Shown piece after piece: positions 5,117 to 62,618 of a DNA stretch of 64,000 nucleotides. The stretch lies in NCBI GenBank assembly GCA_947172415.1, contig OX359194.1, positions 5,890,001-5,954,000 on the forward strand, read 5' to 3'. A program made the position numbers and the translations under genes. Position 1 is the stretch's first letter. Every line of letters starts with the position of its first letter. The stretch comes from Chondrosia reniformis. Lineage: Eukaryota > Porifera > Demospongiae > Chondrillida > Chondrillidae. The notes beneath the pieces were generated by a model that made no database searches, had not been told where the DNA came from, and saw only the letters and a program-made list of their open reading frames with translations.

Positions 5117-8100
5117 ATGTCTATTGCTGCAGTCCAGTTGAAACACACTTTTGGGCTCAAGGGAGACGTTACAAATAACGTCGCATACTTGGACGAACAA
5201 ACCATTCTTCTGCCAGTCGGTTCGATATGCATTCTATACAATATCGATCAGAAAAATCAAAAGTTTATAACCTGTGCCTCCTCTACAGATGGCATGACCG
5301 CAATGGTAAGCCATCACACTATTAAGCGGAACCTTTAAATAGACCTCCTTTCATTGCTTGCTGACGCTGCACTGTTTGGCTAATAATGTCCAAAGATACA
5401 TACTAAATCAATTTATATAATAATTGTACCTTTCTAGTATTGTTACGTATCTCCACGTGGACCATAAGCTTGAAATATTAGCTATTTATATATCTATGCA
5501 AAAAATAAATTCTTTATGTATAAAGCTAAATTATTCAGTTAGCTACGTATGTACCTACATAAGCTCCTGCAAATATACTAGACTAGTGCATGCCTTCAAG
5601 AAGAGCATTATCAGTTTATGGGTCTCCATATACGTAGGCTGTCAGTCCTAACAAGAGATATGCAGCAGTAGCTGAGAAGGGAGAGAAGCCGACTGTCACA
5701 ATTGTTGATCTGCACACACTGAGAAAGAGAAAAGTTCTATCATTTCCGGATCTTCAGTCTCTGGAGTTTGTCAGTCTTGCCTTTTCTCCCGACTCCAAGT
5801 ATCTGATAGCTCAGGGGGGAGCCCCAGGATGGGTACTGGTCTACTGGGGATGGGAGAAGGCTAAAGTGATGACAACACTCAAAACAACCAACCAGCACAA
5901 TTCACCCATCAAACAGGTACCTACCTACGTATGTATGTATATACTTGTGTATGGAAAGCAGACTGCATTTGTAGGCTCTACCACTGCACATAAATTACAT
6001 ACGTAGGTATAAGGTATATGAAACAAGGGATCTTGTTGTGGACTATAATACTTCTATAGTATGAATATTGTGTGTTTATCTAATCTTTAGTATCTCCACG
6101 TGTTTGTTACAGGTGTCATTCAATCCGAAAGACAACACTTCTATCTGTATTATAGGCGAGACCATCTACAAACAGTTTAGATATACTGAGGGCAACTTGA
6201 AGCAACATTCATTTCAAAAAGCTGAACCCCAAAACTATCTTTGCCATGCATGGCTCTCTGAAACCAGGTTGATAATTGGCACAGATACTGGGAAGGTACA
6301 GCTTTTCGAAGGAGGGGACATGAAGAATGAATTTGAAGTTCCATCTGTTCCGGCCCCAGAATCATCCAAGTCTCCATCTCGCTCTTCTAAACATGAACTG
6401 GGTACTGGCTATGAAGTAGCTATCAATTGTATTACAACATACTCAAAGGTCAGCTTTAGGAACCTTTGGTAGCTATATCAGATGGAACTTAGTAACAATA
6501 CCTACGTATGTGAATATAAATATATGTATGTACGTATACGTACTCATAAAAATTGCACAATTACGTACGTATATACATGCTAATACACATATGTACATAC
6601 TTATGTGATTAACAGTGAAAATACGTACTTACACACTTACAGGGTTTCCTGTGCTCTGGTGGTAGTGGAACATTGCACTTGTTTGAGAAGACTGATGAAA
6701 AGAATGTGTTCAAGCATGTCCGTTCAGTTAGCATCTGTGTCGATCCCAATATACAAATCAACATCTCTGACAAAGTTACAAACCTCCACGATATTATGAG
6801 CCTATCGCTGAGTCCTTCAGAAGAGAATGTAGTGTGTTCTACAAGATCACACCAGTTGTACTCCCTCACACTGTCTGCTGCAGATCTTGGAAAGGTACGT
6901 ACATACATATGTGCATGTGTATATACATAGATGTTTCTCTTGTATGCATGTATATATGTAATTGTTTACGTACGTATATAATTTGAGTTTGTATGCATTC
7001 TCGGAACAATGCTATATATGTATGTACATGTGAATGTAGATGAGTATTTGAATATTTAAGTATCAGCTACTTCTATAAACAAATTTGGAAGTTTCGAACC
7101 ACAGGTCTTCCTCAGCAATAAATTATGTTCCTGGGTATCAAATATGTACCTCCCATATTCATTATGAAAGCAACAGAATACCGCTTACTATTACAATGCT
7201 ACGATTATGTGTACATACGTAATTGCAACATACGTATGTACATTTGACTTTTATCTAGGCTGCAAGTAATTCTGCTTTCAGCTACCTCTCTCAAGCCTTC
7301 CATTCTGCTCCCATACTTGGAATGGATGTTTGTCTCAGGAAGCCCCTTGTTGCTACGTGTTCTCAAGACAGATCAGTGCGCATATGGAACTACGAACAAC
7401 AGTAAGCAGAAGTACTGCAATATAATAATAATAATCTGCAATATACGTACTGCAATACGCTGTTCCTGCATGATAGCCAGCTACATATGTACGTATGTGC
7501 ACAACTTAGTCTCTGATGGAATATCTAGTGCACTTAAATTACACATGTACGTGCCAACGTACGTACATACATATGGAAAGTTGTTGCCTAAATATGTATT
7601 TATTGTACTAGACCTCTTGATTCAATATTACAGGCCATACGTACGTATTTTAGTGTCTTTTAAGAATTGAGTGGATTACAAAATTGCTTATTTAATATTC
7701 TTTTTTTATTAAGAGTACTTGATATTTGGAAGGAATTCCAAGAAGAAGCGTATAGTGTTGCCTTACATCCAAGTGGACTCTTTGTTCTGGTTGGGTTCAG
7801 TGAGAAGTTGAGGTTACTCAACATCTTGATTGATGAGCTCCGAGTGTTTAAGGAGATCAGTATAAGAGGCTGCAGAGAATGCAGGTTCAGCAACGGTGGA
7901 CATCTTTTTGCTGCAGCCAACTCAAACCTCATTCAGGTGTACGGAACATTCTCATTTGAGAATGTGGGAAACTTGAAAGGACACAGTGGAAAGGTACGTA
8001 CAAACGTATATTGTTACTGTATAATTTTATACATAAAATGTTTTTGCCCTCAAAGTGTGTCTCAAGCTCTCACTAGGTTTAGTTCCCTATAGGCCTTTTA

Positions 8101-11100
8101 CTCTAAAGTAGATGTAGTAAGAAAATGATACATATATTAGATTATTCATACGTACGTATGTATAGATGTCTTACGTATATGTACGTATGTATATATGGTT
8201 TGTCATAGGTGCGCAGTATTGGATGGAATCAAGATGATACTCGTCTGGTGTCTTGCAGTAGTGATGGAGCTGTGTATGAGTGGAATGTCCATGCCTACAA
8301 GAGGGAGGGTGATTGTGTGGTCAAGAACTGTTCATACACATCTCTTGCTGTCAGCGGGGATGCCAGGACCACCTATGCCGTGGGGACAGACTGTACACTA
8401 AAGGAACTCAACCTGATGGATTCAACTGTAAGTATTCTCATTTAACTTGGGCTTGTATGTAACCAAAAGTATGTACGTATATCATGCATATGTTCTTATC
8501 TATGGTGAACCCTCTCTCAACAGAACTCCCTTGGGACCAGCTACATACATGTAGCTATAAGGGTCAGTTTAGAGAGGTGTCTAGATTAGTGAGGTTTCAC
8601 ATACTACTATAAATGTACGTACGGTACGGTTCATAAAAACGGTATCGTTAACCTTCTAATACGTAGTTACCATTTTTCGGTTAAAAGGTAACATAAAACA
8701 GGTAACAGTTAACTGTTAACTTTTAACCGAAAATCGTTAATAATTAACAGTTATGTACCTTTAGCACTAAAGGTGTAAATCGTATTCGAATAGGGAATAT
8801 ATGAATTATTAATTTTTTTCATTATTATTGTTGCACATACATACCTACGTACGTAAATAGAACTGTAGCACTGTAATCCATATTTCGTGTGGCTCAGCCC
8901 CGTCCTATTGACATGTTGGGGAAATATTGTATGTAGGAACACACATACGTATATAACATGTACGTATATAACAACATAGTGAGCCAAGGATTCACAGAAG
9001 ATCAAGATAAAGAAAAAGACAAAGACTCCCAGGATCACTGATGAAGGGTGGAATTCCCAGAAACGGCTGTCTGACCCAGTGGAGAAGAAGATGAAAGAAG
9101 GGAAAAGAAGGAAGAAAAGACTACTGTATCTTCATCTAAAGCTCTCTTTAGGTTTAGTTCCCCTATAGGCTCTTTTTACAGAATAGGCATATAGCATGTA
9201 GGAAAATGGTATCTTAGATTTTTCATGTTCTGTACTTAGCTTCCTTGTTTTTGTGTTAGGTGAAACGTGAGATCAGTGTTGGTCCAGCTGCTTGTACACA
9301 GATCAGCCTTTCTAGATCTGGTCGCATGATGTTTTGTGGTACCGCTAATGGTGTCATCAGAGCAGTCAAATTTCCCCTGGGAGAGACTGGTGATTGGCAG
9401 GACTACCAATCTCACACTGGACCTATAAATAGGGTTAGCTATAGCAGCATGCTACATATAGTACCTCAGTATTATTAATGAATTCAATTCAATAAATGAA
9501 TATACGTATGTACATAGGTATTACACACTACAGGGTTTCTTTTGTCTTTTGGAAGATATCACAAGGGGGCAATATACGTATGTACATATGTAGTAAGCTT
9601 ATGAGGGAGCAACCTGGTTCAAGGTTTTATTTGCAATGAATATTTGGTAATTTGACTTTCTTCAAGTGGATAAGATATTTTTAAGAGGGGTAAATGCCAC
9701 CCCCTTAAAAGAAACCCTGGCTTACATTCATGTATACGTACGTACATGCATGTGTACGTATATACGTACATGATTATAGTATTTTTGTATAGTAATAAAT
9801 AATCTATTATTTGATTTCCAGTTGTGTGTTTCATGGGATGACCAGTTCATGTTCTCTGCTGGAACAGATGGGTCTCTCTTCATCTACAAAGTTGCTGACA
9901 AGGATGGTAGGGGAATGAAAAGAGACAAAGAGATTACTTATTCAGAGGAGATCCTCATCACAAAATCAGACCTTGAAGAAAAGGTATATATAATTACTGT
10001 GTTCCATGCAGTGTAGTTTCTGTCTGATAACTTCAGTTAACTTTAATAAGTTAGTAATAAGTTAACTTAATTACTATGTAATTTATGGAACATGCGTACA
10101 TATGTATGTATGTATGTACACAGTTATATATATATATGTCAGTGCTACAGTACAACTGAATGTATTGCAGAGATAATATGTACATAAGTACATACATACG
10201 TAAGTACCCTGCTACGTATGTCTTATGTAGAATACCTTGATGTCTGAACTGAAGACACGTGTGGATGAGTTGAAGATGGAGAATGAGTATCAATTGAGAT
10301 TGAAAGACATGAATTACAGTGAAAAGATCAAAGAAATGTCTGACAAGTTTTTACAAGAAAAGGAAGATCTAACAGCTAAGCTAGTAGTAAGGATATACAC
10401 ACATACATTAAATTTTGTATGTACGTACGTATGCCTCTAGAGTATGGCCTTCAGGACTCATCTGTCTTGTCAGTATATACTACAATGCATTACATACATA
10501 AGTATGTAGGGGCAAGTTTAATATTTAATACTACGAAATCCTGTCTGTTAGTCTTTGCAAAGTGAGAAGGAACAAATGGAAACTAAACACAATGACAAGA
10601 TACAAGAGCTGAAAGAGAAGCAACAACAAGAAATTCATGACCTCAGTAAGTGACATACAGTATGTACATACGTACGTACGTACATCAAACACTAATGGCT
10701 ATATACTATAATGCATACCTACGTACATATATGTACGTATATTTACGTATGTACTGTATACGTACATATCACCAACTGTACATACGTACGTACATACCAT
10801 ACCTACGTATCTGTTACAATCTATTAATCAAATTACTCATACATATGTATTTATGCAGGCAACGCAGATGCTCAGAAACTGATGAATGAATATGAGAAGT
10901 ATCAAGAACTGCAAGCAAGAAACCAGAAACTTCAGGAAGACTATGAAAGACAGTTGGTAGAAATGGAAGCATCAAGGGAGAAAGCCTTGAATGAGCTGAC
11001 AGAGATGTATGAAGGAATGCTCCATGATAAAGCCCTGCAGTTGGACAATGCAAGAGAAGAGCAGAGACAGCACCATAAAGAGTGGGATGAGATGAGAAGA

Positions 11101-13909
11101 CAGATCGAAGAAGACAGTGATATGGAAATTCTTGATATTCGAAACAAGTTTGAGAGGAAGCTTCGTGAGGAAAAAGAAGAAAATATCAAACTTAGAGGAG
11201 AATATGGCATTACAAAGAAAAAGGTTGAGTTTTCAAATGCATGTAATTACTTGCATACATCCCTTAATATATAAAGGTGTCACATTCCCAATTGCTAGTG
11301 TTCCACACACCTACATACGTACGTCGGTAGGTAGGTATGTGGGTAGAATCTCATCTAGAAGCAGGTCCTCTGTTCTTTTCATTCCTTTGTATACATATGT
11401 ATGTAGGTTGACAGTTTGCAGAACGAAATTGGTTCATTGAAAGGGGAAATTCAGAAGTTGGAGAGTGAGCTTAGGAAGCGAGAGGCCATCATTTCTTCCC
11501 TTAAGGTGGATATTGATGGGCTAAGGAGGGAAATACAAGAAAGAGATGACACAATTCAGGTAAGTACTTCCATATACGTACGTGCATACATATGTATACT
11601 TGAGCATCAGCAACATTATAACTCAATGCTCAAATATACCTACCTTTTCATTATGAATGCAACAAATACCCCCTTTCACATACGTACGTATATGTACAGT
11701 ATGTAATACGTACATACATACATACATACATTTATTACATATTGTAGAAAATACGTATACATACGTATGTCTCGTATTTCATTGACAGTACATTACGTAT
11801 ATATGTGTATATAGGATAAAGAGAAGAGGATTTATGACTTAAAGAAGAAAAATCAGGAACTTGAAAAGTTTAAATTTGTTCTTGATTATAAGATTAAGGA
11901 ATTGAGAAGACAAATGGAACCAAAGGAGAATGAAATTAAAGCAATGAAAGAACAGATTAAGAAGGTATGTATGTACGTACATATGTAAATCTCTGTAATT
12001 GATGCATTGTGTTTACAAATGTATAAGTACTGTAAATACGTACGTATATATACGTAACTGTATTCATTAACAGTCTTATACATTTGTACGTACATACGTA
12101 TGTAGTACTCTCAAGTTATATCATGCATCCTCTAGGCTCTGTAGATTATGGGTTACGAATTACATAATGTATGTAGTAAAAGGTCCCTATTAAATAAATG
12201 TATGTATGTATGTTCACATGCATAAGTTTCTCTTATCTTCCTTGGTCAACTGACAGATGGAGTCTGAGTTAGAAGAGTCAGACAGAGAGAACAAAGCCTA
12301 TGAACTCGCCTTAGAGAAACAAGATCTTAAGCTACAAGCTTCTAACTCTGAAATGATGAAAGAAAGAATCAAAGTGAGTTTCTAAGATATTCTAGTTATA
12401 CTATGTCTATGTATTTAGTGTAGGCATAATACGTATGTATGAATAATCTAAAACAGTGTTAAAGAGGTACGTACGTATGTACTAATTTCTAACGTAGCTT
12501 TTCATACTGTGGGTGAATATACGTATACTTCTTGTTTACTTTAATGTATGTACATACACATGATTGATATAATACATTATGTACGTACTTCCATACTTGT
12601 ATGCTCTTAGGTTCATGATATGAGGGTTGAGTTGCAAAACATTAAAGCTGGTCTGCATGGAACTTCACGCTATATACAGGAGCCCAAACAGTTGAAGGAG
12701 AAAATTAAAGAACTCTACAGATTACATCTTGGCGATTTTGAGGAAGTATGTATGTACATATGTACATACATAATTTTTAAATTATGCAACATTTAAATAT
12801 ATGCATCTCATACAATAATACTATTTCTTGTTCATGTACTTACATACGTATGTACGTACATGCTTATGTATTTACGCTTTGGTGTGTTTGCCTCAAAATC
12901 TTGTTCCTTTCTGCTTTGGGCTAGACAGCTGTTTCTAGGAAATCCACCCTTCATTAGTAACCCCAGGCGTCCTTTGTCTTTTCTTGATCTTGAGTCCTTG
13001 GCTCTCTGTGCTAGATCTAGTTGTCTTATATACAGTAAATTGAATTAGGTGTTAACTAAGACACATAATGATATTGTACCTTAAAACCTGTAGGGTTCTC
13101 AAGCTGATCAGAATGCTGAAAGTGATATGCATAGTGAGTATGCCAGACAAAGGAAACACTTGGAGCACAGTGTGGCAGCTCTCAGAAAGAAGTTATCTAA
13201 GGACACAGAGATCCATCGTATGGATAACATCAGAGTAATGCAGGTACGTACGTATGTTTAGACATGCTTACGTATGTACATATATGTACTGTAAATCCCA
13301 ATATTTGATACTTTTTAATTACATGAGTTTTAACATAATTTTGTACATATACGTACATACCTACACAATGTATGCATGTACGTATATAAGACATACGTAC
13401 TTAAGACTTGGGTCTTGTACGTACGTATACTGCAAATCACAAAGATTTGACACCCCTTTTTTAATGACTTCTAACACTGGTATAGTTTAATTAAATTTAG
13501 TGAACATTACTGGATTATATCAGATTGATTTTGAGTTACATATTATACGTATCTCCACTCTTCAAAAATATAGGAGAATGTAACTTTACTTAAAGAAGTG
13601 AATGATTTACGTAAAGAATTGAAAACTGTCAGATCACAGTTGCATGATAGTCAAGCAGCCATGAAGATTCTGCAAAAAAATGTTTCAGAAGTCACACTAA
13701 GGACAACCAGTTCCCAGCCCCCACAAGTGTCTACTGTCAGTGGAATTGTTCAGGTCGAGCCTTCTCCTAATGATCAGTCAAGGATCATTGACATGCAGAG
13801 AACTGAGATTAGCAAACTGAGACTTAGGATTCGTGAACTTGAGAGTGGTAGACCACATTCTGGAACTAGGTTACCACCACTTGGAACTGTCACGTTACCT
13901 GTGTCGTAA
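5117..13909 (+). CDS. CFAP57: Cilia- and flagella-associated protein 57 (WDR65)
   Basis: Axonemal WD-repeat/coiled-coil protein (inner-arm dynein region, motile cilia). Eighteen exons: 5117-5305, 5638-5916, 6113-6448, 6643-6894, 7259-7401, 7714-7993, 8209-8427, 9260-9433, 9822-9983, 10231-10386, 10552-10645, 10859-11223, 11407-11559, 11815-11964, 12257-12373, 12611-12745, 13094-13243, 13574-13909. All junctions keep frame and give 1,229 residues (human about 1,250). Residues 1 to ~660 form WD40 beta-propellers (for example [38 protein letters not shown]); ~675-1190 is continuous coiled coil ([40 protein letters not shown]); the end is [12 protein letters not shown]. Most introns are phase 0. 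They contain TACGTA palindromes and several repeat insertions listed separately. No break was found. Confidence 0.95.
7075..7125 (-). repeat. Penelope/hammerhead relic in CFAP57 intron 4
   Basis: Minus strand reads CTGAGGA + A + GACC…GGTTC + GAAAC, the same core string found in the pseudo-LTRs of the Penelope-like element at 24.5-26.8 kb, but without the cleavage triplet or pairing flanks. A decayed terminal fragment. Confidence 0.4.
8056..8151 (+). repeat. Retrozyme-like repeat, 3' fragment (CFAP57 intron 6)
   Basis: Matches only the 3' part of the dispersed ~240-bp family (AGCTCTCACTAGGTTTAGTT … CCCTATAGGCC … GATTATTCAT). It belongs to the older subfamily together with the copies near 39.4, 61.5 and 62.0 kb. 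No hammerhead core. Confidence 0.55.
8504..8601. mobile_element. MITE-like remnant in CFAP57 intron 7
   Basis: Imperfect terminal inverted repeats: GTGAACCCTCTCTCAACAGA at the left and, inverted at the right, GTGAAACCTCACTAATCTAG, both followed inward by an ACTCCCTTGGGACC-like block. The layout resembles a short non-autonomous DNA transposon; the superfamily cannot be told. Confidence 0.4.
8664..8740. repeat. Foldback sequence in CFAP57 intron 7
   Basis: Two arms, TTTTCGGTTAAAAGGTAAC and its near inverse GTTAACTTTTAACCGAAAA, separated by a short A-rich loop. It could form a long hairpin in the pre-mRNA. No coding sequence. Confidence 0.5.
8981..9226 (+). mobile_element. Retrozyme-like element, near-complete copy (CFAP57 intron 7)
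   Basis: About 246 bp, non-coding, and ending in TTTTTCATG. In order: A/G-rich leader (GCCAAGGATTCACAG … AAAGACAAAGACTCCC), the hammerhead-like core at 9032-9077, a purine run (GAGAAGAAGATGAAAG), the AGCTCTCTTTAGGTTTAGTT block, a CCCTATAGGCTC block and a tail with AGCATGTAGGAAAATGG. Very similar to the copies at 38252-38492 (inverted) and 49525-49796, so this subfamily is young. It ends 33 bp before exon 8 of CFAP57. It has no tRNA-like promoter, no terminal inverted repeats and no reading frame conserved between copies. Confidence 0.7.
9032..9077 (+). ncRNA. Hammerhead-ribozyme-like motif (copy 1)
   Basis: Stem I 5' strand GGATCA (9032-9037), core CTGATGA (9038-9044), stem II GGG/CCC (9046-9048 with 9056-9058), GAAA (9060-9063), a tiny stem III C…G around GGCT, then U and cleavage residue C at 9071 (GTC), then stem I 3' strand TGACCC (9072-9077). 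Five of six stem I positions pair. Departure from the classic core: an A sits on each side of stem II where a G-C pair is usual. That may lower activity. Confidence 0.6.
12880..13040 (-). mobile_element. Retrozyme-like element, 5' part (CFAP57 intron 16)
   Basis: On the minus strand it starts TATATAAGACAACTAGATC, runs through CAGAGAGCCAAGGACTC and the hammerhead region and breaks off soon after. It shares its 5' start with the 49.5-kb copy, which helps to define the left end of the family. Older and diverged. Confidence 0.6.
12918..12963 (-). ncRNA. Hammerhead-like motif, covarying relic (copy in intron 16)
   Basis: Stem I GGGTTA/TAGCCC pairs at all six positions (one G·U), although the bases differ from the 9.0-kb copy: a C-G pair there is U-A here, and an A×C mismatch there is G-C here. 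Core reads CTAATGA (the invariant G5 is A, so probably inactive). Stem II is GGG/CCT, then GAAAC-AGCT-GTC; stem III is the self-complementary CAGCTG. Confidence 0.55.
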
Positions 13910-23626: not shown

Positions 23627-24039
23627 GTAGACCTACTTCGATTCACAATTCCACAGGCATTATGTAGTTCTCTCAGTATAAACAATCTGTAGGTATATAG
23701 ACAATAGCTAAGAGGTATCACCTATGGTACTACCGTAACATAATGTAACTAGAAATAAACAAAAGAGAGTATTATAATGGTATTACTGGTAAACCTTAAA
23801 GTACTTATAATTATTGGCTTAACTCATTCAGGTGTGAAAAGATAGTGAAAGAAAGTGTTGGATCAAAAGAAAATTTGCATGGAATTTATAGTGAGTATAA
23901 CAACTGTAAAGCACCTGGACTACATCTGTTCAAAGGAACCAGCAGATTTAGCAGTCCCTAATAACTAGTAACTCCTAGCTGCTGTAGTTCAGTTTGGGGA
24001 GATATGTAGTACATGCTTACCAGGTTCTCTGTGCCATCA

Positions 24040-24215
24040 TCATTAAACTCTGGGTATTACCCCTGCCCACTCATGTCCCCTGAGGAGCGCAATGAGCTGA
24101 TGGGCGGAACCGAAGTTCGCTTGATGGGAACCAGAGTCTCCCCCTAGCCACTCAAAAACATGGTTGAGCCATAGACAGCTGTTTCGTCCTTATTATAGGA
24201 CGAAACAGAATAACT
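24040..24215 (-). repeat. Repeat with half a hammerhead-like motif
   Basis: Inserted between unit markers and absent from units 1 and 3. On the minus strand 24215-24174 reads GTCC-loop-GGAC-GAAAC-AGCT-GTC, exactly the stem II to cleavage-site half of a hammerhead, but the CTGATGA side is replaced by CTGTTTC. The rest has a CTCCTCAGGGGACATGAG block, related to the foldback at 45.28-45.39 kb. Perhaps a second retrozyme-like family. Confidence 0.45.
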
Positions 24216-24543: not shown

Positions 24544-25030
24544 TATCTTTGGGATGGTACATCCTTCGACTTTTGAGCGTTTAAAAACGCAGTTGGTTTT
24601 TTCAATTCTTGGTCAAACGTTTCGACCCTGGGGGTCTTCCTCAGTGACTGATGGTTGAGTGGAAGAATTGCCTCTATTTATAGAGGATTTTTCCCGCCAT
24701 TTCCACTTCCTGTCATGTGACCCTCAGCAGAATGAGAAAAACAGGAAGTATGAATATTAAATCGTCTCCAGGCTTGATGTAACACAATGCCTTGATCTAA
24801 ATTCATTCTCACCTGACTCTTCTGGATCCTGATGGCTTCTTTGACCCTTCTCCTTTGCCAGTGGGTTTCCCTGTCTGTAATCTTGGCCTTGTCCCAAGCA
24901 ATTGAGTGGCCAGTCTTGAGGGAGTGAACAGCTATACCGTTGTTCACATCCCCCATCCTGACTGCTCGCTTGTGCTCTGCCAATCTCACTTTCAGGGTCC
25001 TTCCAGTCTCACCAATGTAGACTGCAGAAC
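24544..25030 (-). repeat. Left (inverted) pseudo-LTR
   Basis: Inverted copy of 26327-26812, including the coding region for the second half of the GIY-YIG domain (VYIGETGRTLKVRLAEHKRA on the minus strand). It joins abruptly to the plus-strand reverse transcriptase frame at 25031. Confidence 0.85.
24612..24648 (-). ncRNA. Hammerhead-like ribozyme in left pseudo-LTR
   Basis: Same motif as 26709-26745, on the minus strand because the pseudo-LTR is inverted. Confidence 0.6.
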
Positions 25031-26679
25031 CAGAAGATAAGGGCACTCTTGGATGATACGAGTTATCAAGCCATTAAGAGAAACCCCACAATGAAGATAG
25101 AACGGAAGGTAACTGAAGTTCTAAGGTCACTTGAGAAAAAAGGCAAACTCCCCTCTGATCTGAAGAAGAAGGTTCAGAACCAAAACAGCTCCACACCTCA
25201 GCTCTACGGATTACCAAAAATCCACAAGGCAAGTGTACCCTTGAGACCAATTGTTTCCTCCATTAATTCCCCTACCTACAACCTTTCCAGGTACCTGGCA
25301 GGGGTATTGTCACCACTATGGGGGAAAACTTCTCACTTTGTGCGGAATTCTCATGACTTTGTCGAGAAGATCAGGGGAATGGATGTGAACACTGAAGATA
25401 AGTTGATCAGTTTCGATGTAAAGAGCCTATTTACCAAAGTACCCATTGATCTATCTCTACAGATCATCAGGAGACGACTTGCGCGGACCCTAACTTGGAG
25501 CAACGTACACCCTTCGATGTATCTACCATTGCGGATCTTACAGAACTCTGTCTCAGGACAACGTACTTCCTGTACAGTGATGAGTTCTTTGAGCAGAAGG
25601 AAGGGGCAGCCATGGGATCTCCTCTCTCCCCGGTGGTAGCGAACATCTTCATGGAGGAATTCGAAGTAGAAGCTCTTCGTGCTGCTGTGATAAGGCCTAA
25701 GTTGTGGTTGAAATATGTGGATGACACATTTGTCATCTGGAATCATGGTGACGAGCAGCTGGAGGACTTCTTGAGTTTCCTCAATGGAAGACATCGCAAC
25801 ATCGAATTTACCATGGAGAAGGAGACCAATGGTTCCTTACCCTTCCTGGATGTGCAAGTAAAGAAGTGCATGGGAAGTTTGGACACATTTGTGTATAGGA
25901 AACCAACACACACAGACAGGTACCTTCACTTTACCTCTCATCACCACCCTAGGGTAAAAACTGGTATCGCACTGTGTCTCAAAGACAGAGCCGAAAAGAT
26001 TTGTGGACCAAACTCCAGTAGCTTGGAAAAAGAAAAGGAGCACCTGGAAGGAGTACTTCAAGCTAATGGATACCCTAAATGGGAGGCTCACAGACTGCTC
26101 AACAGGAGAAGGCAGACTAAGGGGAGTGAGGATGAGTGTAAACACAAACTCTTTATTCCATATATAAAGGGACTCAGTGAGATGATCGATAAAAGCTGTA
26201 GAAAAATGGGTATCCAGACCATTTTCTCCAAGCAGAGATCACTGAGAACCGTTTTATCCAACCCAAAAGAGCCACAACCACCTATGGATATCAAGGGTGT
26301 AGTTTACCTAATTCCTTGCTCTGTGTGTTCTGCAGTCTACATTGGTGAAACTGGAAGGACCCTGAAAGTGAGATTGGCAGAGCACAAGCGAGCAGTCAGG
26401 ATGGGGGATGTGAACAACGGTATAGCTGTTCACTCCCTCAAGACTGGCCACTCAATTGCTTGGGACAAGGCCAAGATTACAGACAGGGAAACCCACTGGC
26501 AAAGGAGAAGGGTCAAAGAAGCCATCAGGATCCAGAAGAGTCAGGTGAGAATGAATTTAGATCAAGGCATTGTGTTACATCAAGCCTGGAGACGATTTAA
26601 TATTCATACTTCCTGTTTTTCTCATTCTGCTGAGGGTCACATGACAGGAAGTGGAAATGGCGGGAAACATCCTCTATAA
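25031..26679 (+). pseudogene. Penelope reverse transcriptase–GIY-YIG endonuclease (5'-truncated, one frameshift)
   Basis: Frame 1 covers 25031-~25484 (QKIRALLDDTSYQAIKRNP, LYGLPKIHK, RPIVSS, SFDVKSLFTKVP); frame 2 continues from ~25486 to the stop at 26679 (AMGSPLSPVVANIFMEEFE, catalytic KYVDDTFVIW, SLPFLDVQV, then the GIY-YIG domain VVYLIPCSVC…VYIGETGR). The switch occurs around 25478-25490 and is consistent with loss or gain of one base. A full-length protein of this class would have some 150-200 more N-terminal residues. The two aspartates of the YVDD box are present. Role: target-primed reverse transcription of the element. Confidence 0.85.
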
Positions 26680-26708
26680 ATAGAGGCAATTCTTCCACTC
26701 AACCATCA

Positions 26709-26745
26709 GTCACTGAGGAAGACCCCCAGGGTCGAAACGTTTGAC
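26709..26745 (+). ncRNA. Hammerhead-like ribozyme in right pseudo-LTR
   Basis: Stem I GTCA (26709-26712) pairs fully with TGAC (26742-26745). Core CTGAGGA (26713-26719), one extra A, stem II GACCC/GGGTC with loop CCA, GAAA (26734-26737), a two-pair palindromic stem III (ACGU) and cleavage residue U at 26741. Very short, palindromic stem III matches minimal type I hammerheads reported from Penelope-like elements, which are thought to act as dimers. Confidence 0.7.
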
Positions 26746-26812
26746 CAAGAATTGAAAAAACCAACTGGGTTTTTAAACGCTCAAAAGTCGAAGGATGTAC
26801 CATCCCAAAGAT

Positions 26813-37800: not shown

Positions 37801-40800
37801 AGATATATACACAATAGATATGTAGTTACGTAGTTGGTGACATGTCTCTGTTGATAGAGCATGTATATGTAACATGATATTATAGTGATGGTGTGTGTGT
37901 ATTGAATTGTGTTGTCCTGACACTGCAGACTATTAGGGGTATACTGACTCCACGCCATGTTGACAGTTGTAGCTTGGTTTATATTCCATTGGAGAGGTAT
38001 AGTCTCTTTGGTGAGCAAAGAGGAGATGAAATGGTTCCAGTAGCTACTAATGTTCAGTTAGGAAGTGATGACACTGGAGTGCTTGCTCTCTTTGTGAAGA
38101 TGTTGTCAGGTTCTTCACGATCTAAAGACATTTTAAGTCTTTTGCAAGGAACTCTATCAACTGAAATGGTTCCTGATGCTATCATTGAAGTAGACCAGTT
38201 CCCACTGACATCACATGGTAGGTACCTGATGCACTTGGCAGGTACCTGATGAAAAATCTAAGATACCATTTTCCTACATGCTATATGCCTATTCTGTAAA
38301 AAGAGCCTATAGGGGAACTAAACCTAAAGAGAGCTTTAGATGAAGATACAGTAGTCTTTTCTTCCTTCTTTTCCCTTCTTTCATCTTCTTCTCCACTGGG
38401 TCAGACAGCCGTTTCTGGGAATTCCACCCTTCATCAGTGATCCTGGGAGTCTTTGTCTTTTTCTTTATCTTGATCTTCTGTGAATCCTTGGCTGATGCAC
38501 ATGGTAGGTACCTGATGCACTTGGTAGGTACCTGATGCACATGGCAGGTACCTGATGCACTTGACAGGTACCTGATGCACTTGGCAGGTACCTGATGCAC
38601 TTGGCAGGTACCTGATGCACATGGCAGGTACCTGATGCACTTGGCAGGTACCTGATGCACATGTTTTAATACAACATTCCTGCTAAAAAGGCTATCCTTC
38701 TCCACTGCACATGATTACTTCTACAGGTAAAGTTGACAACTCCCAACTGACACTTAGCTGGTTGGAATACAAGAGAAATAAAGTAAAGCCAATACTACGC
38801 TCAGTCAGTGAATTGAGAACATTCTTACAAAATATTGTAAAGGTACGTAGTTTTCTACATAACACTTAATAGTCATGCTATACAAAAGTTAAACTGTTAT
38901 TAGTTTCTAGCTAATCAGTGTCTCGGTATATGCTGGTGTACATGTATTCCAATTTATAGACTCATTTTGATGTGAAATGGGATTTAAATCAGAAGCTGGT
39001 TTTGGATTGTGGATTGGACTCTTTTCAGGTGCTTAAATTGCACAATATCCTGTTAGATGTTCTCTGTCTACCTTATCATACTGAAGAGAGGAACACTTCA
39101 TCACTGATAGATGATCTTCTTAATAAGGATCTCAAGACCTTGACTTGTGATCTTTTAATGAGTGAAGCTGAGCCAGTTTCCAGTCTTCAGACAGCTTCAA
39201 CATTGCAGCAGTACAAACAACTACAAGGCACTCAGGATGAAGGTGTAATGGTCATGGATGCCTCATCTGCTAACAAGGTTTCAGCAATTGAAGGTATTTT
39301 TAATGTTTATGCAGAGTGCTAATTTGAATATTAAAAACCTGCAGTACATGTGGTCCAGTGGAGAAGAAGAAATGTAAAAGGAGAAAATTACTCTTGTATC
39401 CTCACCCAAAGCTCTCACTAAGCTAAGTTCCCTATAGGCCTTTACTCTAAGGTTAGATGTATCATGTAAGAAAAATGGTGTATTGTAGATTATTCATGTA
39501 AAACATGTTATGGAAATTAGAAGACCTGTTTGTTTGTTATTAAAATGGATTTGTTGGTAGGACTTGTAGCACACACCTTAATTAATTCAATTTACATATT
39601 CACAACTATTTTCGTGCTTCATCAAGAGCTTAATGACACATTATATACGTACGTACCATGTTACTATGAGTATAAATGGCGGCTACTGGTTGCTGTGTTA
39701 TGTACATTACAGTAGATACTAAGACTGCCGATAAGAGTAGCTCAAGCTCCTTCCTTTCTGGTGAACCAAATGCAAAGAAGCTCAAAGCTTGCGGAAAGTG
39801 TTGTGTAATGCCATCTGAAGACACCTCAGCAAGACTCTTGTCTTGCTGTGATAATGTGCTTCATTCCTTTAGAAGAGGACAGTACTTCTGTGGATCTGAG
39901 TAAGATGCTTGGCTTGCCCACTTAAAGATTCTAGTTTATACTTTATACAGTCCGCTTTTCTTTGTCTATCAAGTAATAATAGAGATAGAGCCATTCTTAG
40001 CAATAGCTATATATTTTAGGTGAAACCAGAGGTAGATTTAAGAGGTTGCTCTGCATGGGTGCTGAAATTAACACCTCCTCTGAGTTTGGCTTTGTACACT
40101 GTATTAGCTATATTCTTTCTGGAGGATCTTACCTCAGTAATTTTCTCATTACTGTAACACTTCTACGTATATAATTGAGCACCCCCTTTAGATCTGTCCT
40201 GGTGATTATGACCACATAGGTAGTGTGATCAGTGAAAATCTATTAAAATTAACCAGTTAATTAACACAGTTTTCTGTCTTCTCTCATACGGCTTTGTCAG
40301 GCAAATGGTTCCACTCCTGAAAGGTGATTGTTACATTGCTGCCTTCAGTCTGAGGGTGAAATGGTCATTTAATACTGGTAAATGTGTGGATGCCTCTCCG
40401 CTGCTAGTTGTTCTGGATGAAGGGGGGATACAGCATTCCAGTGTGTGCATTGGGTCTCACTCTGGATTGATTGTGTGTTTGAAATGGGAATCGGGCTCAC
40501 CAATATGGCAGACAGAATTACCAGATAGAATTGAATCTTCTCCTGTCTTATCAAAGTGTGGCAGTTTCATAACAACAGGTATGTATTATATATTGTATGT
40601 ACTTGGCAGTCCATTCTATCAGTTTGCTTTGAAAACTGTGCTATAGATTACATGTTCTTAGCTATTGTATCTTTACTTGAAGCAAATTATATCATTTATT
40701 GAAACATTGCTAAAATTACACAGATTGACTATATACGTATAATTAGTTTTTATTGTGCATGTGGCAAATAATGATCAGATATCTGGTGTACTTCTGTAGG

Positions 40801-49524: not shown

Positions 49525-49796
49525 CATGTATGTATATAAGGCCCCTAGATTTAGCATAGAGAGCCAAGGATTCACAGAAGATCAAGATAAAGAAAAAGAC
49601 AAAGACTCCCAGATCACTGATGAAGGGTGGAATTCCCAGAAACGGCTGTCTGACCCTGTGGAAAAGAAGATGAAAGAAGGAAGAAAAGACTCCTGTATCT
49701 TCATCCAAAGCTCTCTTCAGGTTTAGTTACTCTATAGGCTCTTTTACAGAATAGGCATATAGCATGTAGGAAAATGGTATCTTAGATTTTTCATGT
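49525..49796 (+). mobile_element. Retrozyme-like element, longest copy
   Basis: About 270 bp, inserted at GCATGCA|CATGT of the duplicated receptor intron; the original site at ~46.95 kb is uninterrupted. Begins TATATAAGGCCCCTAGATT, which defines the 5' end of the family, and ends CTTAGATTTTTCATG. The insertion is younger than the receptor duplication. Confidence 0.7.
49610..49657 (+). ncRNA. Hammerhead-ribozyme-like motif (49.6-kb copy)
   Basis: Core CTGATGA at 49617-49623, stem II GGG/CCC, GAAAC, GGCT, cleavage triplet GTC at 49648-49650. Stem I (AGATCA with TGACCCT) pairs with one bulge. Confidence 0.55.
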
Positions 49797-61675: not shown

Positions 61676-62618
61676 GCATATATGTACGTATATGCTGTAT
61701 AATTGTGAAGCTACCCATGCATACGTGTAGTTTAAATCAAGTTTGCTGTATAATAAACCATCATTCCTCCCTACTTGCATTATTGGAGTTCTGCTGAGTA
61801 CATTTATAATACTGAACTAAGCAACTGTTGTAGACTCTTGTGTGATGGAGCAGCTGTGTTTTTCAAATATTTAAACTACATACTACGTACTTTATCTGGG
61901 GATCCAGTCTTCTTCAGTGACCCCAAGATACTTTATTTGGTAAATTACATGTCTATATGAGTGCAGTGTGCATGTCAAGGACTCACAAAAGATCAAGAAT
62001 AAGATCAAGAATAAGACAAAGATTCCTAGGGTCACTGATAAAGGGTGGAATTCCCAGAAACAGCTGTCTGGCGCAATGGAGAAGAAGTAGAAGGAGAACA
62101 CTCTTGTATCCTCATCCAAAGCTCTTACTAGGTTTAGTTCCCTATAGGCCTTTACTCTAAACTAGATGTAGCATGTAAGAAAAATGGTGTATCAGATTAT
62201 TTATGTAGAGTATTGGGAGATAAACAGTTTTAAAGTAATTCCTAACTGGCATATTCCATCTCCTGCTGATTGTAATCTTTGCTCTGTCTTCTTGTAGCCT
62301 CCTTCATCAGTGTCTTCTGTGACTCCATTTAACAAGAAGGAACAGCAAAGAATTGCCTTAGAGGTGCAAATATTTACATAGAGATTTAGAAAGATGGGCA
62401 ATTGTATTAAAGGGTTACAATTATTGGTATATGTTACTGTACAAACTATTATTATACCTAACTTCACCACTTCCTCATTACAGCATGCTCATTCACAGAC
62501 CTGTAGCTACATTATACCACAAGACTCCAATTATAACAATCTAATTATACCAGTTTTACCAAGGCTTTCAGAAGATGGAGAACTTGTACAGCAACCACAC
62601 AGATCGGGTAGCAAGTAA
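60505..62618 (+). CDS. INIP: SOSS complex subunit C (INIP, hSSB-interacting protein)
   Basis: Small subunit of the SOSS single-strand-DNA sensor complex in homologous-recombination repair. Exons: 60505-60517, 60580-60655, 61319-61397, 62298-62363, 62484-62618; sum 369 nt, 122 residues (human 104). N-terminus MASG-EYERRQNILQGLQKKR corresponds to the family's basic LxELxKEKRKLL helix; the C-terminus KKEQQRIALEHAHSQTCSYI … QDSNYNNLIIPVLPRL matches the diagnostic QQKAALQHAHA…QDS…NLILPVLPRL. Between them is a Ser/Pro linker. Intron 2 holds a 32-bp array that reiterates the exon-3 acceptor; I chose the last TACAG (61318) because it keeps the frame. Its promoter abuts the satellite block. Confidence 0.85.
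60709..61318. repeat. 32-bp minisatellite built on the INIP exon-3 acceptor (copy 2)
   Basis: About 19 units, more than the ~14 of copy 1. One unit carries a TACGTACATACAG variant (near 60.96 kb). The final unit is shortened by 3 bp. Each unit ends in a good acceptor (TACAG|G). Adding three units (96 nt) keeps the frame; adding one or two does not. Confidence 0.85.
61525..61620 (+). repeat. Retrozyme-like repeat, 3' fragment (INIP intron 3)
   Basis: Matches from CCAAAGCTCTCACTAG to GATTAATTATTCAT. No hammerhead. Followed by a (TTA)n microsatellite. Confidence 0.55.
61618..61675. repeat. (ATT)n microsatellite
   Basis: About 19 uninterrupted ATT triplets in INIP intron 3. Confidence 0.95.
61972..62205 (+). 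mobile_element. Retrozyme-like element, old full-length copy (INIP intron 3)
   Basis: Diverged copy with an internal 15-bp duplication (AAGATCAAGAAT twice) and the older-subfamily 3' half (ACTAGATGTAGCATG). Hammerhead region at 62029-62074 has CTGATAA, GGG/CCC, GAAACAGCTGTC; stem I GGGTCA/TGGCGC is partly paired; probably inactive. Confidence 0.6.

Follow-up and report, generated by a model that had tools for sequence, protein, structure and literature searches.

A variant hammerhead in the leader of a domain-permuted Penelope-like element of a sponge, and genomic copies that begin at its predicted cut site

A short repeat dispersed through the genome of Chondrosia reniformis corresponds over its whole length to the leader, a part of the pseudo-LTR, of an autonomous Penelope-like element (PLE), and the 5' ends of its copies pile up at the very nucleotide at which a hammerhead-like motif within it is predicted to cut. 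From these sequence comparisons we consider it likely that the repeats are leader copies of a PLE with permuted domains, and that a variant hammerhead cuts the RNA of this element in vivo before it is copied into DNA. Somewhat more cautiously, we favor the view that this hammerhead, in which two subfamilies of the element retain an A10.1·A11.1 opposition, works in vivo and that its cutting fixes the 5' boundary of a minority of new insertions. If this is true, the genome records the activity of a ribozyme at single-nucleotide precision, as possibly would any genome rich in PLEs. Hammerheads are widespread in PLEs, where their role is, to our knowledge, unsettled; counting where copies start offers a simple test of template cutting by a ribozyme in vivo, and the answer here looks positive.

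The repeat and its hammerhead-like motif

We analyzed a 64,000-nucleotide stretch of the genome, hereafter the window, for which an initial annotation had proposed eight copies of the repeat, the full ones with a hammerhead core. The repeat is indeed dispersed in the window, but BLAST places it at seven positions rather than eight (Table 1); the core is intact in three of these seven, while the copies at 61976 and 12909 have core changes. The copy at 8975-9228 is 100% identical to positions 206-459 (P206-459, in pseudo-LTR coordinates) of the pseudo-LTR of a second locus, L028, and its flanking DNA is unlike the flanks of the other copies. As an exon of a CFAP57-like gene lies directly downstream, this copy is probably situated in an intron of that gene.

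Table 1. Features of the window (positions counted from its first nucleotide)
Feature	Position	Strand	Basis or remark
Family fragment from the 3' half, 42-nt piece	8060..8099	+	BLAST
Leader-only PLE copy, short	8975..9228	+	5' end near the transcription start, 3' end TTTTTCAT(G)
Hammerhead type-I-like motif	9026..9084	+	Letters; genome-wide excess; least-changed block between subfamilies
Predicted cleavage site GTC^TGACCC	9071..9072	+	5' ends of other copies pile up there
CFAP57-like ciliary gene exon	9260-9432		Directly downstream of leader copy 8975-9228; CFAP57 chains in PDB, best E 4.9e-13
Diverged old copy	12909..13075	-	Inner stem I GGGTTA/TAGCCC, six standard pairs; G5 changed
Canonical PLE, RT then C-terminal GIY-YIG, frame broken	24962-26780		RT scores 29.0 bits with RVT_1, cut-off 29.6
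Second leader-only copy	38249..38493	-	100% identical; 5' end at AGCC; satellite-like array (by eye)
Old copy with 5' end exactly at the hammerhead cut site	39351..39500	+	acatg|TGGTCCAGTGG
Third leader copy	49531..49796	+	~93% identical
Older-subfamily copy	61976..62207	+	Core G8 changed

The motif reads, in order, CTCC-CA-GGATCA, CTGATGA, A-GGG-TGGAATT-CCC-A, GAAAC-GGCT-GTC and TGACCC-AGT-GGAG. Stem I pairs 9026-9037 with 9072-9084, its inner helix containing one A·C; the core consists of CTGATGA (9038-9044), GAAAC (9060-9064), a GGCT loop and GTC (9069-9071); and stem II pairs 9046-9048 with 9056-9058 above an A9045·A9059 opposition at its base, in place of the usual G-C. The type I letter order and the A·A opposition, both pointed out in the initial annotation, are thus present in the sequence as written. 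A relaxed core pattern, CTGATGAN{8,28}GAAACNNNNGTC, occurs 1135 + 1151 = 2,286 times in the 117-Mb genome, a count that pools the leader family with the other hammerhead families of the genome, as against 2 + 3 = 5 for the reversed pattern. On this comparison we reject a chance origin of the core; the hammerhead-like core is real.

The covariance-model search that had been suggested for this copy was run with the Rfam hammerhead models and returned no match to 8975-9228 even at E<=10, the leader motif remaining below the gathering cut-off of RF00163 (hammerhead type I); five old-type copies and the full element likewise gave no match at E<=10. The motif of the canonical PLE of the window is also missed by these models (E<=1), so that an Rfam miss is not diagnostic for hammerheads of the PLE type. 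Other loci of the same genome exceed the Rfam hammerhead cut-off (51 of 72 rows).

Two subfamilies can be told apart by the inner helix of stem I, which in the old one (best 40 scored of 3,257 candidates) is GGGTCA/TGGCCC with six standard pairs and in the young one GGATCA/TGACCC with one A·C. Both usually show the A·A at the stem II base: each of the two columns is A in at least 90% of the 54 rows of our motif alignment, which holds 54 of 70 distinct copies (114 BLAST rows), the omitted ones being 15 that differ in length and L128, in which the letters are out of register. When the majority letters of 6 young and 21 old rows are compared, the motif differs at 4 of 59 positions and the rest of the leader at 54 of 187 (Fisher p 3e-4), or, counting substitutions alone, at 4 of 59 versus 32 of 165 elsewhere (p 0.02); it is the least changed block of the leader between the subfamilies.

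An excess of compensatory changes, which the initial annotation would have expected across copies, was looked for in the 54-row alignment and is absent: none of 17 pairs is changed on both sides, and 91.8% of cells are paired versus 92.2% in shuffles. Covariation thus lends the hammerhead no support; most copies probably decay neutrally. With no model hit and no compensatory excess, two of the three outcomes that the initial annotation had named as refuting its reading have come about; against them stands the pile-up of copy ends described below. One double change was seen by eye in the window copy 12909-13075, which lies outside that alignment. The free-energy fold of the young-type RNA is not a hammerhead and is no better than shuffles. 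Among five old-type copies folded, four form stems I and II, together with an extra CUG/CAG pairing across the core; only one (L088) is clearly better than shuffles, 9 of 200 being as good, the corresponding figures for the others ranging from 54 to 171 of 200. In the passages of PMC3088659 that deal with mispairs, a mispair at 10.1-11.1 was a ground for rejection and U·U was the best tolerated, from which the A·A would be expected to be harmful. A young-type ribozyme weakened by the loss of one stem I pair would fit the smaller share of young copies that start at the cut site.

The parent element and the ends of its leader copies

A search of the genome with the 246-bp repeat gave at least 41 places, 40 of them at 100% identity, among the best 40 scored of 1,635 candidates. 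Three pairs of identical leader copies lie 3,501 bp apart, and one such pair encloses an open frame of 997 codons (L028:804-3797), the flanks of which form a direct repeat, that is, tandem pseudo-LTRs. The encoded 997-aa protein has a GIY-YIG domain at residues 126-159 (Pfam E 2e-4; 21.9 bits, just under the curated cut-off of 22.6). No Pfam RT domain was matched even at E<=10; RT-like motifs are visible by eye after the GIY-YIG, and residues 609-938 match the RT of the window's PLE in tblastn searches (E 3e-6 and 4e-4). The order of domains is swapped relative to that canonical PLE (25196-26400), with the endonuclease at 124-159 and the RT at 609-938 (tblastn). The element therefore combines features of PLE membership, namely GIY-YIG and RT in one ORF and tandem pseudo-LTRs, with an endonuclease N-terminal to the RT, a feature of Naiad-type PLEs. 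Since 34 of 47 pseudo-LTR rows (>=90% identity) extend to the end of the ORF, the 246-bp family is, judged by its sequence, the leader of this autonomous PLE. The proposal that Penelope-like machinery moves the repeat is thereby supported.

A search with the 997-aa protein (46 rows scored of 1,450 candidates) gave 49 rows, 13 of which cover nearly the whole ORF; nine of the 13 are free of stops at 98-100% identity, which suggests recent activity of the parent PLE. At G000:C11:3260726-3263713 a PLE ORF 81% identical and with 19 stops is found together with pseudo-LTRs (L074, L075) that are 98-99% identical to the young type, an uneven decay within one copy. The second PLE announced for the window is present, with RT followed by GIY-YIG at 24962-26679. 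It has a hammerhead-like motif of its own at 26713; upstream, its end is repeated in inverted orientation, with the motif at 24644 on the minus strand. Several PLE and hammerhead-family copies are flanked by 13-bp minisatellites (such as TAGTACATACAAC; L050, L028), which may be a preferred target.

The short copies have fixed ends. A TATATAA box lies at P184-190. In 13 of the 47 rows the match does not extend to P1 and hence not to the end of the ORF; the start lies at P178-214 in 11 of the 13, among them L025, which is in fact the beginning of a longer copy, and at P140 and P373 in the remaining two. This sample excludes rows below 90% identity and favors copies holding all of P212-457. Young-type copies on contig C1 agree with this: 29 of 57 start at P211-218, and 12 of these share the start P214, about 30 nt past the TATA box, while 10 reach the edge of the retrieved stretch (57 of 85 C1 places were measured with duplicates kept, 28 being omitted since the exact core adjoins). 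At the 3' side the short copies end in TTTTTCAT, sometimes followed by a G; in the complete element this sequence immediately precedes the ORF. A linear mRNA that runs from its cap to an internal priming site would explain both of these fixed ends.

Copy ends at the predicted cut site

As the old copy at 39351 begins precisely at the predicted cut, copy ends were tested more widely. In a sample drawn from old-type matches to the post-cut part of this copy (the best 40 scored of 2,179 candidates), of which 35 were retrieved with upstream DNA and, with the query, make 36, eight copies have the base that follows GTC as their first, and another five start no more than 6 nt downstream; L083, L085, L087 and L093 reach upstream of the site, and counting them gives 8 of 40. 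One of the eight is the query itself and two have the same flank; with the query and the shared flank discounted, 6 independent starts stand against 15 ends over 80 upstream positions (Poisson 5e-8).

Across the genome, the exact 20-mer that follows the cut, preceded by three bases foreign to the family, occurs at 46 + 37 = 83 places (43 old-type and 40 young-type, raw), with none for the reversed control. The same design applied 7 nt upstream gives 5 (raw). We judged this control weak because 5' junctions favor TG, and hence used one at a TG 4 nt upstream that matches the ACA|TG preference, which gives 9 (5 old, 4 young; raw), and then the reciprocal end, copies ending at GTC, which gives 3 (raw). 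At the place equivalent to the site 9071^9072, predicted beforehand from the letters, copy ends thus pile up, 83 raw versus 5, 9 and 3. Collapsing local repeats (same contig, flank and type within 1 Mb, a rule under which one C2 array still counts as three) reduces the 83 to 62, and setting aside five TGT-flanked places, which are probably one-base deletions, to 57. At 14 of 20 inspected places, hand-chosen, unclustered and on several contigs rather than random, no element sequence lies upstream; the other six are internal deletions, duplications or not clean (L192 was called not clean by eye, despite a score no higher than shuffles). Extrapolated to the whole set, this proportion would put the true count closer to 40 than to 62, still well above the control counts, which were not cleaned in this way.

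The 5' junction reads ACA|TG in 34 of the 83 places, and hence microhomology contributes to these junctions; ACA-flanked starts nevertheless number 22 (collapsed) at the cut site versus 2 at the TG-matched control. In the young C1 sample, which was chosen independently of ends, 3 of 57 copies start at the cut site, two of them with the same flank, and 2 of 57 at the TG 4 nt upstream, so that the evidence of an excess in the young type comes from counting the pattern genome-wide, 40 versus 4 raw. Two of the control places at that TG (L168, L180) were also met in this sample. A tree of 71 rows with 21 cut-site copies requires 16 changes of label, where shuffles average 17.8 and 94 of 500 need no more; within the weak resolution of this tree (one starred branch of 63, forcing at least two label changes), the cut-site copies are not one lineage.

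Two further observations concern the same site. At G000:C2:756960-757401 there are eight pattern matches, several 25 bp apart, each starting at the cut-site sequence. In L192, L200 and L198 leader copies have an apparent internal deletion whose downstream joint coincides with the cut site, as a jump of RT at a cleaved end might produce.

Proposed mechanism, alternatives and relation to known systems

We propose that the 246-bp repeat arose when the 5' leader of the PLE mRNA was copied into cDNA. The PLE protein would nick target DNA and start reverse transcription internally, at UUUUUCAU; a start in the first leader of the mRNA would be copied back to the cap, over about 246 bp, and stop there. 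The type I hammerhead with its A·A, midway in the leader, would cut part of the RNA after GUC, and RT running off at the new 5' end would yield copies of about 150 bp that begin with TGRCCC. Passages of PMC11167929 on the anole PLE describe internal initiation near the boundary of leader and ORF, as well as a hammerhead that cut only with protein present. Such dependence on protein could explain how a poor core might still be active.

The same copies could carry a dead hammerhead, the cut-site ends being microhomology joints, in which ACATG meets the leader TG, or an RT stop. This we hold to be unlikely, though the A·A pair, the absence of covariation, the misfolding of the young-type RNA, the share of ACA|TG junctions and the similar counts of starts at the cut site and at the neighboring TG among the few young copies measured (3 versus 2 of 57) all speak for it. 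Microhomology or a stop would have to coincide to the nucleotide with a site predicted beforehand, would have to account for the gap between cut site and TG-matched control both in raw counts and among ACA-flanked collapsed starts, and would leave it unexplained that almost only the 3' product is inserted. A separate short lineage that starts at TGRCCC and amplified on its own would fit a few local expansions, such as the C2 array and ten similar places at C2:2.55-3.52 Mb; we consider it very improbable, given that both subfamilies contain cut-site copies and that these lie dispersed over the tree. Still less credence is due to the idea that the stretch is protein-coding and its hammerhead resemblance incidental. 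A 61-aa frame does span the motif, but three of the four subfamily differences in the motif, the three that were read by eye, change the amino acid, pieces of 6 and 12 nt nearby are absent from the old type, and the 2,286 versus 5 cores point the same way; this reading was rejected.

Copies of a leader alone can be mistaken for a SINE or a retrozyme in its own right, and the initial annotation had taken the repeat for a retrozyme, which would be a small non-autonomous element of its own that spreads by way of circular RNA. It is small and non-coding, has a hammerhead core, occurs as 1,039 exact young-type 30-mers in a genome where PLEs are present, and among the 57 young C1 copies the short ones outnumber those reaching the edge of the retrieved stretch. 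We nonetheless reject this identity as improbable: the entire sequence is common to a PLE pseudo-LTR with an open 997-aa ORF, the ends are linear and fixed with a TATA box upstream, and the 85 exact-30-mer places listed on C1 include no unit-length tandems (170-400 bp), their smallest same-strand distance being 1,865 bp. One pair of cores lies 191 bp apart (C1:2734627 and 2734818) and is not unit length. According to the passages of PMC7229834 on animal retrozymes these are tandem and highly self-paired, whereas the leader RNA folds less well than shuffles (z +1.79). A different family of about 355 bp in this genome, with hammerheads over the Rfam cut-off spaced 352-355 bp and direct repeats of 350-355 bp (L044, L050), looks retrozyme-like in its sequence. 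BLAST of the 246 bp against 30 hammerhead loci of this kind gave five matches, none at the hammerhead: three are PLE-leader copies in the flanks (L046, L032, L055) and two are short (E 0.06 and 0.74). In the window, 24032-24195 is a partial relic of the ~355-bp family that ends, judged by eye, in what resembles a snap-back of its own hammerhead stem. A further hammerhead type over the Rfam cut-off, with stem II GCCC/GGGC, was seen in L030 and L033, and similar cores recur on C1.

In the reading preferred here, the short repeats are leader copies of a domain-permuted PLE with a hammerhead that probably cuts in vivo. Naiad-type PLEs share with this element an endonuclease N-terminal to the RT, a likeness in domain order alone. 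With the PLEs that carry minimal hammerheads in their pseudo-LTRs, as described in parts of PMC11167929 (Poseidon of Anolis) and PMC6155905, the sponge element shares GIY-YIG and RT in one ORF, tandem pseudo-LTRs, a hammerhead upstream of or at the ORF start, a short stem III and internal 3' ends; it differs from them in having GIY-YIG before RT, an A·A at the base of stem II and many leader-only copies. It also has genomic copies that end at the cut site, whereas the passages of PMC11167929 on the anole element report no RNA-seq reads that begin or end there, and hammerhead mutants with unchanged insertion in vitro. In the open-access papers searched, among the matches listed, we found no report of PLE copy ends at hammerhead sites. 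As for metazoan retrozymes, as treated in parts of PMC7229834, the leader repeat resembles them in its type I core letters, which come with an A·A at the stem II base and no Rfam match, and in a length within 170-400 bp, dispersal and coexistence with PLEs, and differs from them in showing no unit-length tandems on C1, in its linear ends and in being part of an autonomous element. A parallel is found in R2 with its HDV-like ribozymes (passages of PMC3774820 and PMC3414825), where self-cleavage defines the 5' ends of insertions, as it would here; the sponge leader differs from R2 in using another ribozyme fold, and in that a minority of its copies end at the cut site.
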